This document shows positions 10,424 to 15,866 of a stretch of 33,124 nucleotides of DNA, one piece after another. The stretch covers positions 1 through 33,124 of the forward strand of contig JAAYJW010000434.1 of the NCBI GenBank assembly GCA_012522765.1, written 5' to 3'. The notes under the pieces were generated by a model that was given only the letters and a program-made list of their open reading frames with translations, was not told the origin of the DNA and did no database searches. Made by a program: the position numbers and the translations under genes. Each line of letters opens with the position of its first letter. The stretch's first letter is position 1. The DNA comes from a candidate division WS1 bacterium (GTDB taxonomy: Bacteria > Armatimonadota > Zipacnadia > Zipacnadales > UBA5352).

Positions 10424-10789
10424 TCAGCCACGCATCATTCGTGCGGCGATGATGCTGCATGCTTCCAGTACCTCGATGCCCGCGTTTTCGAGCTTCTGCC
10501 GAAGCTCCACGCTGCCGGCGCCGGGGTTCAGATAGACCTGCGCTATCCCCTTCTCGATGATCTTGTCGGCGATCCTCATCCCCAGCGGCGGCGGGACATA
10601 CATCGTCGCCACCTGCACCTCCCCGGGGATGTCGAGAATAGTGGGATAGGCCGTCAGCCCCTCGATCTGCTCCTCACGCGGATTCACGGGATAGACCGTC
10701 CATCCGGCCTCCTGCCACGCCCGCACGGCCATATTACCGTACTTGGCCGGGTCGGCGGACGCGCCTACCACGGCGATTGTTTCTCGCAT
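10424..10789 (-). CDS. CoA-binding (YccU-like) Rossmann protein
   Basis: A 121-residue stand-alone CoA_binding_2 domain of usual length. It begins ETIAVVGASADPAKYGNMAVRAW (nucleotide/CoA loop), then VYPVNPREEQIEGLTAYPTI, MYVPPPLGMRIADKIIEKGI, VYLNPGAGS and a C-terminal ARMMRG. In this family the domain resembles the CoA-binding part of succinyl-CoA synthetases, but the cellular role is poorly defined. It is 46 bases upstream of the GT2 start on the same strand and could head that operon. It diverges from the zinc-ribbon gene. GGGAG lies about nine bases before the ATG. Confidence 0.88.
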   Translation of the reverse strand: MRETIAVVGASADPAKYGNMAVRAWQEAGWTVYPVNPREEQIEGLTAYPTILDIPGEVQVATMYVPPPLGMRIADKIIEKGIAQVYLNPGAGSVELRQKLENAGIEVLEACSIIAARMMRG

Positions 10790-10827
10790 CGCGGCTGACT
10801 CCCATTCGTGAGACGCACACCGTCGGC

Positions 10828-10856
10828 TTGACTACGACACCCGGCGGCGGTACAAT
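10828..10856 (+). promoter_or_regulatory. Sigma-70-type promoter of the zinc-ribbon gene
   Basis: TTGACT (10828-10833), a 17-base spacer and TACAAT (10851-10856) match the housekeeping consensus closely, with one mismatch in each box. Transcription would start near 10863, about 37 bases before the GTG start at 10900. It is the clearest promoter in the window. Confidence 0.7.
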
Positions 10857-10899
10857 TGAACGTGACTGCTCTCGTCGCAAACTGCCGGGAGGCGCACAG

Positions 10900-11019
10900 G
10901 TGACGTGCCCGAAATGTCGCGTGGCCATGAAAGAGCAGCGGGGCGTTCATCATGGCCAGCGCAAATTCAGATGTCCCAGGTGTGGCAAGACCCGCATGAA
11001 GCGGCACCGGGAACGCTAA
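10900..11019 (+). CDS. 39-residue basic zinc-ribbon protein
   Basis: The track shows an 80-residue ORF from 10777, but the promoter at 10828-10856 lies inside it. A strong SD, GGGAGG (10887-10892), stands seven bases before GTG 10900. The product from there is 39 residues with two CxxC knuckles (TCPKC near the start and CPRCG near residue 26) and a very basic tail (KTRMKRHRER). This pattern suggests a single zinc ribbon able to contact nucleic acid or a protein partner. A terminator overlaps its stop codon, so it forms its own transcription unit. I do not recognise a named family. It could be a small regulator or a translation/transcription accessory protein. Confidence 0.7.
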   Translation: MTCPKCRVAMKEQRGVHHGQRKFRCPRCGKTRMKRHRER

Positions 11020-11203: not shown

Positions 11204-11461
11204 ATGAGTGCTGACGATCTGAGGCCCGAAACGCCAAAGCAGGATGGCCGCGGCTGGACTCGCACCGTGCTATTGATGGCGGTGCCGCTCATGCTCGTAT
11301 GGGCGGCCGCCTTCTGGGTGACGGGGCTGCTGTGGTGGAGCCCCCGAGAAGATGCCGTGGAGCAGTCGCCACCGCCCGCACCTCCCGCGATAGAGGCCAC
11401 AGATGCCACGACGATCGATCTTGAGCGATACACACGCGCGCGCCCGACATGGCAGCCGTGA
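11204..11461 (+). CDS. Small single-pass membrane protein, function unknown
   Basis: An 85-residue product with a charged N-terminus (SADDLRPETPKQDGRGWTR), one long hydrophobic segment (TVLLMAVPLMLVWAAAFWVTGLLWW, about 21-45), and a Pro/acid-rich tail. GGGGAG lies eight bases before the ATG. It is 45 bases upstream of the trmFO-like gene on the same strand and may be co-transcribed with it. I recognise no family. By topology it would be an inner-membrane protein with a short tail on the other side. Confidence 0.65.
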   Translation: MSADDLRPETPKQDGRGWTRTVLLMAVPLMLVWAAAFWVTGLLWWSPREDAVEQSPPPAPPAIEATDATTIDLERYTRARPTWQP

Positions 11462-11506: not shown

Positions 11507-12802
11507 ATGAGCCTTAAGCGGATCAGTGTCATCGGCGCTGGAGTCGCAGGATGCGCCGCGGCGATATCCGCCGCGGCACGTGGCGCGGACGTGCTTCTCT
11601 ACGAGCAGCGCCCCCTCCGGTCAACACCAGTGCACACCACCGGGATACCGGCGGAACTCTGTGGCGGTGGCGACTTCGGCGCGGAGGAGACGGATCGCGC
11701 CGGTGGGCTGCTCAATGCGGAACTGCGTGAGCTTGTCCCCTCGCTGTCCTCCTGCATCGACGCCGCGCGCATGGGAGAGCACACGCTGCTGGTCGCCCGC
11801 GAGGCTTTCTCGCAGGCGGTCCGTGATCTCGTGGAAGCCTCGCCCCGGATTGAGTTGCGCGAAGAGCACGTTGCCGCACTTCCCGACGGGCCGGTGGTCA
11901 TCGCCAGCGGTCCGGCCACCTGGTCTCCGCTGGCGCGAGCGATCCATGCCGCATCGGGAGCGCCCTTCGTCTTCTCCTACTGCGGGCGCCCGCCACTGAT
12001 CGCCGCGGACAGCGTTGATCTCTCGGAAGCTCTCTTCGTGCCGCCCTACCCGGGGGCCGAGCCGACGATCTTCCTGCCGCTGAGTGATGACGAGGTGGCG
12101 GGTCTTGCACGGCTGATCGCTTCGGGGGCCAGGGACCACCCGGCGGGCCTCGAGCCGCAGATGGTCCTGGCGGATGAGCAAGTGCCCGTGGAGAGATTGG
12201 CCGCCGACGCTGATGAACTGGCCTCAACGATCCTGCGCGGGCCCCGGGGACCGCAGGTGCAGACGGAAGGGCCGGCGCTTTGTCTGGTGCCTGATGACCC
12301 CGAGCAGAGCGCATTCCACCTGCAGGGGCTTTGCACGTCGCTGACCACAGCCGCTCAGCAGAGCGCGCTTGCGGCGGTCGCGGCGCTGTCGGAGGTTCGC
12401 GTGCTGCGCCCGGGGCTGATCCATCGCACGCCATGGCTGGCCGGGCGCGAGGCGACGCTCTCGAGCCTGGAGCTCGAGCGGCTCTCTCGTGTGCTGCTGG
12501 CAGGAACGCTTACCGGCGCGTGGGGCTACCTCGAGGCGATGGCCACCGGCGCCGTCGCGGGCGTGGGTGCGGCATCTCTGGCAGACGGGCGCAGCCCATT
12601 GCCGCCGCCGCCCGATAGCATGACCGGAGCCCTCTGCTACGCCATCGCGAGGCGGGAGCCGCAGGGCGACAGCAGGATGCTGCGCGCAAACTTCGGCATG
12701 CTGCCCGAACGGCCGCAGGATGAGGGTATGTCGAAGACCGAACGCCGCAGGGGGCAGATAGAGCGGGCGCTGAACGCGATGCGCGAGTACGCCGGCCGCT
12801 GA
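11507..12802 (+). CDS. trmFO: Highly divergent TrmFO-like FAD protein
   Basis: A 431-residue protein, close to the TrmFO length of about 435-470. TrmFO uses FAD and methylene-tetrahydrofolate to make m5U54 in tRNA. It has the FAD-binding N-terminus ISVIGAGVAGCAAAISAAARGADVLLYEQRP, HTTGIPAEL, GPVVIASGP, and a C-terminal LLAGTLTGAWGYLEAMATGAVAG equivalent to the family's FAGQITGVEGYxES. Its position immediately before xerC-hslV-hslU is the canonical one. It is degraded at key sites. The ELVCSNSL region reads ELCGGGDF (Cys52 survives, shifted by one). The second conserved cysteine (GCxPxE) is Gln225 in ADEQVPVERLA. FGPMxPVGL is reduced to LRGPRGPQVQ. No strong SD precedes the ATG. It may be an altered-function homologue; the symbol is given by homology and position only. 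Confidence 0.75.
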   Translation: MSLKRISVIGAGVAGCAAAISAAARGADVLLYEQRPLRSTPVHTTGIPAELCGGGDFGAEETDRAGGLLNAELRELVPSLSSCIDAARMGEHTLLVAREAFSQAVRDLVEASPRIELREEHVAALPDGPVVIASGPATWSPLARAIHAASGAPFVFSYCGRPPLIAADSVDLSEALFVPPYPGAEPTIFLPLSDDEVAGLARLIASGARDHPAGLEPQMVLADEQVPVERLAADADELASTILRGPRGPQVQTEGPALCLVPDDPEQSAFHLQGLCTSLTTAAQQSALAAVAALSEVRVLRPGLIHRTPWLAGREATLSSLELERLSRVLLAGTLTGAWGYLEAMATGAVAGVGAASLADGRSPLPPPPDSMTGALCYAIARREPQGDSRMLRANFGMLPERPQDEGMSKTERRRGQIERALNAMREYAGR

Positions 12803-12850: not shown

Positions 12851-13825
12851 ATGCACGCCGGATGGCAGGATGACTTTCTCAGGTACCTCACCGACGTCCG
12901 CAGGCTCTCCCCGAACACAGTGGAGGCCTACGCCAATGACGTCAACCAGTTCGCCGACTACCTCGCCGCCAACTGGGGCGAGGACCGCGCGTACAACTGG
13001 TCGGCGGTGAGCTACCGCACGATCCGCGGCTTCCTCGCCGACCTTTCGCAGCGACACTACAGCCGCGCCAGCATGGGGCGCAAACTCGCCGCGCTGCGCA
13101 CATTCTTCCGCTACCTGCTCACCGAGAACGCGGTGACGCAGAACCCGGCGGCCGTCGCGCCCACTCCGCGGCAGGAGCAGCATCTGCCGGAGTATCTCTA
13201 TGCCGAAGAGGTCGAGCAGTTTCTCTCCGCCCCGGATGAGAATACCGCACTCGGCGAGCGAGACCGCGCCATCCTCGAACTGCTCTATGCCACGGGTGTG
13301 CGGGTCAGTGAGCTTGTCGCGATGGACGTGGACGCGCTTGACTTCGAGCAGCGGCAGGTCCGTGTCATCGGCAAGGGCAATCGCGAGCGCGTGGTGCTGA
13401 TGGGCGATCGTGCTATCGCTGCCCTGAGGCGCTACCTCGCGAGCGGGCGGAAAGAGCTTCTGCGCCGGGCACAATCGCCCGACGAGTCTGCCGTCTTCCT
13501 CAACAAAAGCGGCGGGCGTCTCAGCGTCCGCGGCGTGCAGCAGCGCGTTCATCGCTACGTCCTTGAAACCGCCGCGAGCAGCCGCATCACGCCACACGCG
13601 ATGCGGCATACCTTCGCCACGCACATGCTCGACGGTGGCGCGGACCTGCGTGCGATCCAGGCGCTGCTGGGCCACAAGTCGCTTAGCACCGTCGGCATCT
13701 ACACCCATCTGACAACCGAGCGAATGAAGCAGGTCTACGCGGCGGCACATCCACTGGCCGATGATGCCGGGCCGGAGGAGTCCCCGCCTGGGGGGCGAAG
13801 GCGCGTAACGGAGGATGAGCAATGA
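12851..13825 (+). CDS. xerC: Tyrosine recombinase XerC
   Basis: A 324-residue tyrosine recombinase. The N-terminal SAM-like core-binding domain (about 5-100) includes [20 protein letters not shown]. The catalytic domain has the complete set of residues: Arg151 (TGVRVSEL), Lys175 (GKGNRER), His249 and Arg252 ([11 protein letters not shown]), His275 ([10 protein letters not shown]) and Tyr284 (IYTHL). Xer recombinases resolve chromosome dimers at dif; no dif-like site was seen in the window. The C-terminal ~25 residues ([21 protein letters not shown]) extend beyond the usual end. GAAGGA lies seven bases before the ATG. Its stop overlaps the hslV start (ATGA), so the two are translationally coupled. 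XerC rather than XerD is assigned from the trmFO-xerC-hslVU order. Confidence 0.92.
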
Positions 13826-14382
13826 CACGGTCAACAACAATCGTCGTGGTGCGCCGCGACGGTCAGACAGCGATGGCGGGCGACGGGCAGGTGAGCATTG
13901 ATGACACCATCGTCAAGGGCACGGCGCAGAAGGTGCGGCCGATGTATGATGGCGAGGTGCTCGTCGGCTATGCCGGAGCCGCCGCTGATGCCCTCGCGCT
14001 CTTCGAGCGCCTCGAGGAGAAGCTGGATGAATACAACGGGAACCTGCCACGGGCGGCGCTGGAGCTTGTGAAGCAGTGGCGCACCGACAGGGTCCTCCGC
14101 CAGCTTGAGGCGCTGCTGCTGGTGGCCGATGAGGAGCAGACCTACCTGATCTCCGGCAACGGCGACATGATCGTGCCCGACGACGCCGTGATGGCGATCG
14201 GTTCGGGTGGCAGCTATGCCCTCGCCGCTGCCAAGGCGCTCCTGCGCAATACCGAAATGTCCGCGCGCGAGATTGCCGAGAAGGCGCTGGGTATCGCCGG
14301 AGAGATCTGCGTCTTCACCAATCAGACAATTACGCTGCATGTGCTGCCGCCGGAGGAAGACGACAAGCAGGACGAGGCGTAG
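13822..14382 (+). CDS. hslV: ATP-dependent protease peptidase subunit HslV
   Basis: A 186-residue proteasome-like peptidase of the HslUV (ClpYQ) complex. Family landmarks are [92 protein letters not shown] and ICVFTNQ. The catalytic Thr (first T of TTIV) is at position 5 behind MTRS, not directly after Met as in E. coli, so a four-residue propeptide must be removed for an N-terminal Thr nucleophile. The start overlaps xerC by four bases and hslU follows after 44 bases. Confidence 0.95.
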
Positions 14383-14426: not shown

Positions 14427-15866
14427 ATGTTCAGACCCGAAAGTGACGTCCCCAGCCTCAGCAGTGAGATGACGCCGCGCGAGATCGTGGCGGCACTCGA
14501 TCGCTTTATCGTCGGGCAGGATGACGCCAAGCGCGCGGTCGCCGTGGCGCTACGCAACCGCGTTCGGCGCCGGCACATCCCCGAAGACCTGCGCGATGAG
14601 GTGATCCAGAAGAACATCCTCATGATCGGACCGACGGGAGTGGGGAAGACCGAGATCGCCCGGCGCCTCGCGCAGCTTGCGAAGGCCCCGTTCGTAAAGG
14701 TCGAGGCAACCAAGTTCACCGAGGTCGGCTATGTCGGCCGGGACGTGGATTCGATCGTCCGCGATCTAGTGGACATCGCCTACCGCATGGTCGAGAAGGA
14801 GCATATCGGCCGCGTCCGACCGGAGGCCGAGAAGCGGGCCAACGAGCGGCTGCTCGAGGAACTGGCCGGTGGCGAACCGGAGCCCGACTTCCCGTGGATG
14901 GTCCCCGGCGGCGGTGGCCGTGAGGAGAGCGCCGAGGAGGCCTCCGCCCGCTTTGAGCGGGAGCAACGGCAGCGCGATCAGCACAACAAAGTGCTGGAGT
15001 ACACTCGACGCCGCCTCGATGCCGGTGAGCTCGAGAACGAGGAAGTCGAGGTTGAGATGGAGGAGAGCCCGTCGATGCAGAACCTGCAGATCTTCTCCCC
15101 GCAGGGCATGGAGGAGATGGGCTTCAACATGCAGGAGATGCTCGGCAACATCTTCCCCTCGCAGACCACCACGCGCCGCATGACCGTGGCCCAGGCACGC
15201 GAGATGATGATCGAGCAGGAGGCCCAGCGCCTCGTGGATGCGCAGGCGATTGCCGCGGAAGCCATTGACCGCACCGAGCAGTCCGGCATCGTCTTCCTAG
15301 ACGAGCTTGACAAGGTGGCCGGTCGCGAGTCAGGCCACGGCCCGGACGTCTCCCGCGAGGGTGTGCAGCGCGACATCCTCCCGATCATCGAGGGCTCGAC
15401 CGTGCAGACGAAGTACGGGCCCTGCGACACCTACCACATACTCTTCATCTGCGCGGGCGCCTTCCACGTATCCAGCCCGTCCGACCTCATCCCCGAACTC
15501 CAGGGCCGCCTGCCGATCCGCGTCGAACTCGACAGCCTCACCGGCGATGAGTTCCGCCGCATCCTCGTGGAGCCGGAGAACTCGCTGGTGCGGCAGTACA
15601 CGGAACTGCTCGCGACCGAGGGCGTGAGGATATCCTTCTCCGAAGAGGCGCTCGATGAGATCGCCGAACTCGCCCAGGAGGTAAACGATACCACCGAGAA
15701 CATCGGGGCGCGCAGGCTCTACACGCTGATGGAGCGCCTGCTCGAGGAGCTTTCCTTCGAGGCGCCCGAGGTCACCGGACAGACCATCGCCATAGACCTC
15801 GGATACGTGCAGTCGCAGCTCAAGGACCTCGCCGGCGACGAGGACCTGAGCCGCTACATGCTGTAA
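14427..15866 (+). CDS. hslU: HslU ATPase/unfoldase subunit
   Basis: A 479-residue AAA+ unfoldase that recognises, unfolds and feeds proteins into HslV. Walker A GPTGVGKT is at 68-75, the pore loop GYVG at 101-104 and Walker [11 protein letters not shown] near 287-296. The intermediate (I) domain of about 110-250 contains [22 protein letters not shown]. The sensor region reads [23 protein letters not shown] and [20 protein letters not shown]. The C-terminus LSRYML matches the docking tail that inserts into HslV. The I domain is Glu/Gly rich and slightly longer than average. CAGGAG precedes the ATG by nine bases. It is the last gene of the block and meets the TauE gene convergently. Confidence 0.96.

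Follow-up and report, generated by a model that had tools for sequence, protein, structure and literature searches.

A cysteine-less paralogue of the tRNA methyltransferase TrmFO at the xerC-hslVU locus of a candidate division WS1 bacterium

The locus and its TrmFO homolog

The stretch of DNA analyzed here (the window, 33,124 nucleotides, from genome G000 of a candidate division WS1 bacterium) has a gene for a homolog of TrmFO (COG1206), the tRNA m5U54 methyltransferase. It is situated before genes for a xerC-type recombinase, HslV and HslU (Table 1), a position given to it in the initial annotation and confirmed by the Pfam matches of the neighboring genes and by the relatives. Resemblance to TrmFO runs along the full length of the protein (Pfam GIDA, 119 bits), with the best match among solved structures being T. 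thermophilus TrmFO (3g5q, E-value 5.8e-50). However, the protein is below the cut-offs of both curated TrmFO equivalogs, namely NF003739 (226.9 against 262) and TIGR00137 (192.4 against 428.65). MnmG/GidA proteins also possess the superfamily fold and C-terminal FAD motif of the window protein, but they are longer and the sequence match is far weaker (46 bits against 227 for TrmFO). With TrmFO the protein shares fold, length, FAD motif, Arg309, Tyr343 and the place before xerC-hslVU, whereas the two catalytic cysteines are gone from it, as are Asn310 and the FGPMKPVGL stretch. The case is also a warning about automatic annotation, which would label such a gene trmFO if it relied on locus or loose homology.

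The structural model of the protein is confidently folded (pLDDT 91.7), with TM scores of 0.61-0.62 to the T. thermophilus structures 3g5q, 3g5s and 3g5r. As modeled, its fold matches TrmFO as well as that of a canonical control does. An altered domain arrangement in the model was considered and dismissed as not specific, the control itself reaching a TM score of just 0.63.

Table 1. Genes and residues of interest at the locus, by position in the window.
Feature	Position	Strand	Basis
Gene for an 85-aa protein with a single hydrophobic stretch, immediately before the paralogue	11204..11458	+	Conserved in family f1; found before canonical trmFO in G286 as well
Cysteine-less TrmFO paralogue, 431 aa	11507..12802	+	ORF; TrmFO homology; paralogue clade 100/100
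FAD-binding GAGVAG, residues 10-15, retained	11534..11551	+	G10, G12 and G15 invariant in 19/19 paralogues
Cys52, off the catalytic column	11660..11662	+	Aligns with T. thermophilus V50, one column before C51
Gly53 at catalytic Cys51 column	11663..11665	+	Glycine in all 19 paralogues; cysteine in 80/80 TrmFO elsewhere
Gln225 at nucleophile Cys223 column	12179..12181	+	Cysteine in all 80 TrmFO genes of the control set
LRGPRGPQ, remnant of FGPMKPVGL	12233..12256	+	Alignment; 7 residues deleted
His306-Arg307-Thr308 at folate residues H308-R309-N310	12422..12430	+	Alignment
Tyr341, equivalent to flavin-stacking Tyr343, retained	12527..12529	+	19/19 paralogues
xerC-type recombinase gene	12851..13825	+	Pfam Phage_integrase, E-value 2.5e-47
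hslV	13822..14382	+	Pfam Proteasome
hslU	14427..15866	+	Pfam AAA_2

The initial annotation had left room for a second, canonical trmFO or a trmA elsewhere in the genome. The former is indeed present in G000 (97.7% complete), at positions 3-1292 of another contig (C164), and scores 644 bits against the NF003739 cut-off of 262. Its product is 55% identical to T. thermophilus TrmFO, has intact CSNSL, GCLPIE, GPMKPKGL and HRN motifs and possesses both cysteines. The gene in the window is therefore a paralogue, and the possibility of a single degenerate TrmFO as the only copy in G000 was rejected. Contamination is an unlikely source of the second copy, as the canonical copies of the family to which G000 belongs (f1) make up a single clade, within which the groupings largely mirror those of the paralogues. 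No trmA was found, nor any other gene for a SAM-dependent m5U methyltransferase of the TrmA/RlmCD family, in G000 or any of the 41 genomes of the order, while the control genomes gave matches. The idea that the window protein stands in for a missing thymidylate synthase was also rejected, as G000 has ThyX; a partial match to the ThyA family (52 bits) is found in the same genome (L095, G000:C316:3805-4239).

Catalytic, folate and flavin residues

Columns are numbered according to T. thermophilus TrmFO (3g5q), with which the window protein was aligned. In TrmFO, C51 is reported to act in a methylene-flavin adduct or as a base, and C223 in the attack on uracil C6 or in uracil activation (PMC7226160, PMC5954106). 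The control and outgroup set consists of 80 TrmFO genes of other, named organisms, obtained with one general pattern scan of named genomes, which yielded canonical TrmFO only; it is a broad sample, not a random one. All 80 have cysteine at both catalytic columns, and so chance does not explain the loss of these residues.

From the sequence the initial annotation had read an eroded set of catalytic motifs between a retained FAD-binding N-terminus and C-terminal end. The alignment bears this out but shows the loss to have been understated. Gln225 lies at the C223 column as claimed, the CSNSL segment is replaced, and RGPRGPQ with a 7-residue gap is all that stands in place of FGPMKPVGLVDPRT; the N-terminal GxGxxG and the C-terminal GTLTGAWGYLE are both present. 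The first cysteine, however, is also gone, with glycine at its column, so that neither catalytic column holds the cysteine which would have spoken against the reading. The window protein is alone among the 19 full-length paralogues in having a cysteine near column 51. At column 223 cysteine is found in none of the 19; the f1 proteins have one of six residues there (Q, S, M, A, H or T), and tyrosine is present in all four f4 paralogues and four of the five from f6.

Seven columns that are near-invariant in TrmFO are lost in every paralogue, these being C51, A92, D158, C223, Q278, N310 and E341. Conversely, all 19 preserve 27 of the 86 near-invariant columns, among which are the FAD glycines, E31, R309 and Y343. 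The folate site is partly preserved, as R309 is kept throughout and N310 lost throughout, while H308 is retained in 6/10 f1 paralogues and lost in all five f6 proteins. As both cysteines are absent, TrmFO chemistry is most unlikely, and activity as an RlmFO-type rRNA methylase was rejected for the same reason. Folate binding is possible in the window protein, since its His306 and Arg307 remain.

Distribution and origin of the paralogue

The paralogue is present in all nine other members of f1, where it is 45-59% identical to the window protein. The ten f1 proteins have intact reading frames, similar lengths and 82 invariant residues. Eight of these nine relatives also possess a canonical trmFO, the exception being G270, which is 59% complete. 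Outside f1, the residue losses described above recur in family f4, genus g15 (five genomes, with the gene of G262 in pieces at contig edges), and in family f6, genus g17 (six genomes, that of G277 being partial). The full-length set of 19 thus comprises ten proteins from f1, four from f4 and five from f6, and these families all belong to a single order. Among the matches listed in a phylum-wide search, those outside the order are close to the canonical sequence, at about 49% identity or more. In families f18 and f25 many genomes have two moderate TrmFO matches rather than one strong match, perhaps due to an insertion splitting the alignment.

Nine genomes (G262, G263, G264, G276, G277, G278, G280, G281, and G282), five of them 92-96% complete, have the paralogue only, and no known m5U54 enzyme was found in them, neither canonical TrmFO nor a TrmA/RlmCD-type gene, although with fragmented metagenome-assembled genomes such absences are not proof. 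In these organisms m5U54 would be either absent or formed by some new route. Four further members of the order with incomplete assemblies (G283, G284, G285, and G287) gave no TrmFO match of either kind and no TrmA. G281 also has a decayed fragment of a second paralogue (L178, contig C29), of which the C-terminal part is in frame and the remainder unreadable.

In the phylogenetic tree the 19 paralogues are set apart by a single branch with 100/100 support. Independent decay in each family was rejected by AU tests, which do not allow the f1 paralogues to group with f1 canonical TrmFO (p 0.004) or those of f4 with f4 canonical TrmFO (p 0.001); with both tree and tests, long branches could attract the three paralogue groups to one another. 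Subject to that caveat, the paralogue is probably old and would have been born once, in an ancestor of part of the order. The canonical trmFO of two f4 genomes (L057 and L058 in G260 and G261) groups with genus g20 of f6 and not with the other f4 genera, a placement that may reflect re-acquisition through transfer.

The neighborhood also bears on descent. In f1 and g15 the paralogue precedes xerC-hslV-hslU wherever the contig is long enough, with the canonical copy, if present, located elsewhere. In families f2, f3, f5, and f7 and the other f4 genera, it is canonical trmFO that lies at or near the xerC-hslVU genes. This, together with the small upstream gene, which the canonical trmFO of G286 also has, indicates that the ancestral position is now occupied by the altered copy. 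The g17 paralogue lies instead near clpX-like and clpP-like genes, as judged by eye. Two further features were seen at these loci: a short ORF whose CxxC pattern resembles a zinc ribbon (window positions 10777-11016), conserved in two other f1 members, and, in three relatives, an insert of two genes separating hslV from hslU (L063:10965-12017, L065, and L069), which by eye resembles a nucleotidyltransferase/HEPN toxin-antitoxin pair.

Pairwise dN/dS among all paralogues is 0.16-0.40, indicative of purifying selection. In f1 the paralogue evolves faster than the canonical copy (0.27-0.40 against 0.15-0.20). All these values come from our own script, and synonymous sites are near saturation in the f1 pairs.

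Possible roles and known counterparts

The initial annotation had suggested that the protein may have lost m5U54 methylation, may use a different mechanism or may act in another flavin reaction, and each of these fits the loss of the cysteines and Asn310 with retention of the FAD residues. The explanation we consider probable is that of a retained, FAD-binding paralogue which has lost TrmFO chemistry and taken on a new role under selection. The protein would keep the TrmFO fold and, judging by residue conservation, the FAD pocket, whereas the absence of C51, C223 and part of the folate site makes U54 methylation highly unlikely; in G000 that task would fall to the canonical TrmFO. A flavin pocket retained in this way, if real, points to another flavin-dependent role, and we infer that this is most likely a different flavin reaction not resting on cysteine, a purely RNA-binding role being less likely.

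That lesser possibility supposes an inactive RNA-binding protein, a tRNA chaperone or binding partner with FAD serving fold stability only, and it appears unlikely, if with some precedent. The TrmA protein of E. coli is needed for viability while its activity is not, probably reflecting a chaperone role (PMC7912444), and the free variation of column 223 in f1 would suit a protein without catalysis. However, the invariance of Tyr343 and the FAD residues is more than a scaffold might need, and several otherwise conserved basic residues have disappeared, K243 from 19/19 paralogues and R263 from 18/19. Unusual surface charge was looked for in the paralogues with no clear difference; overall they are no more basic than canonical TrmFO, which also counts against RNA binding as the sole role. 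A functionless, decaying duplicate is very improbable and largely refuted: the faster evolution in f1 and the decayed extra fragment in G281 would be in keeping with it, but dN/dS is well below 1, and frame, length, identity and invariant residues are preserved across the ten f1 members.

The protein might still be an RNA methyltransferase using folate and flavin independently of cysteine, with tyrosine at column 223 in f4 and f6 or with no nucleophile in f1. The nine paralogue-only genomes and the lack of TrmA/RlmCD matches in the order are in its favor, as is the tyrosine at column 223 in f4 and most of f6, which is the residue of the TrmFO-like proteins of Mollicutes, where a tyrosine nucleophile has been proposed (PMC7226160). 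We nevertheless regard it as improbable, given the loss of N310 in every paralogue and of H308 throughout f6 and the six residues found at column 223 in f1. Moreover, M. capricolum, which has RlmFO and a TrmFO-like protein but no TrmFO, lacks m5U54 (PMC7226160). It is similarly doubtful, though conceivable, that a cysteine-free enzyme derived from TrmFO performs a new flavin-dependent RNA reaction, supplying a T-loop or rRNA modification where canonical TrmFO has been lost.

The nearest precedent for the probable FAD-binding paralogue is this TrmFO-like group of Mollicutes (MCAP_0613), likewise a TrmFO paralogue lacking both cysteines but retaining the FAD motif and Tyr343. In that group both cysteines are replaced by tyrosine, folate and FAD residues are retained and the function is unknown (PMC7226160); complementation gave no thymidylate synthase activity (PMC7226160, PMC4081110). 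The window protein differs in having Gly53 and Gln225 at the two columns, with tyrosine at column 223 restricted to its f4 and most of its f6 relatives, and its paralogue group has lost N310, whereas the folate residues are strictly conserved in the Mollicutes proteins. The two groups belong to different lineages and are likened here by the published description of the Mollicutes proteins. RlmFO (MCAP_0476), which forms m5U1939 in 23S rRNA, is also a TrmFO paralogue with a separate role; unlike the window paralogue it retains both cysteines (PMC4081110).

No report on the window paralogue was found in the literature searched. Beyond the Mollicutes group, it would give a second example of a TrmFO duplicate that has shed both cysteines and has yet been kept by selection, and with two cases the role of cysteine-less TrmFO proteins becomes approachable by comparison. 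Whether m5U54 can be lost or formed otherwise could be tested directly in the relatives that have the paralogue only.
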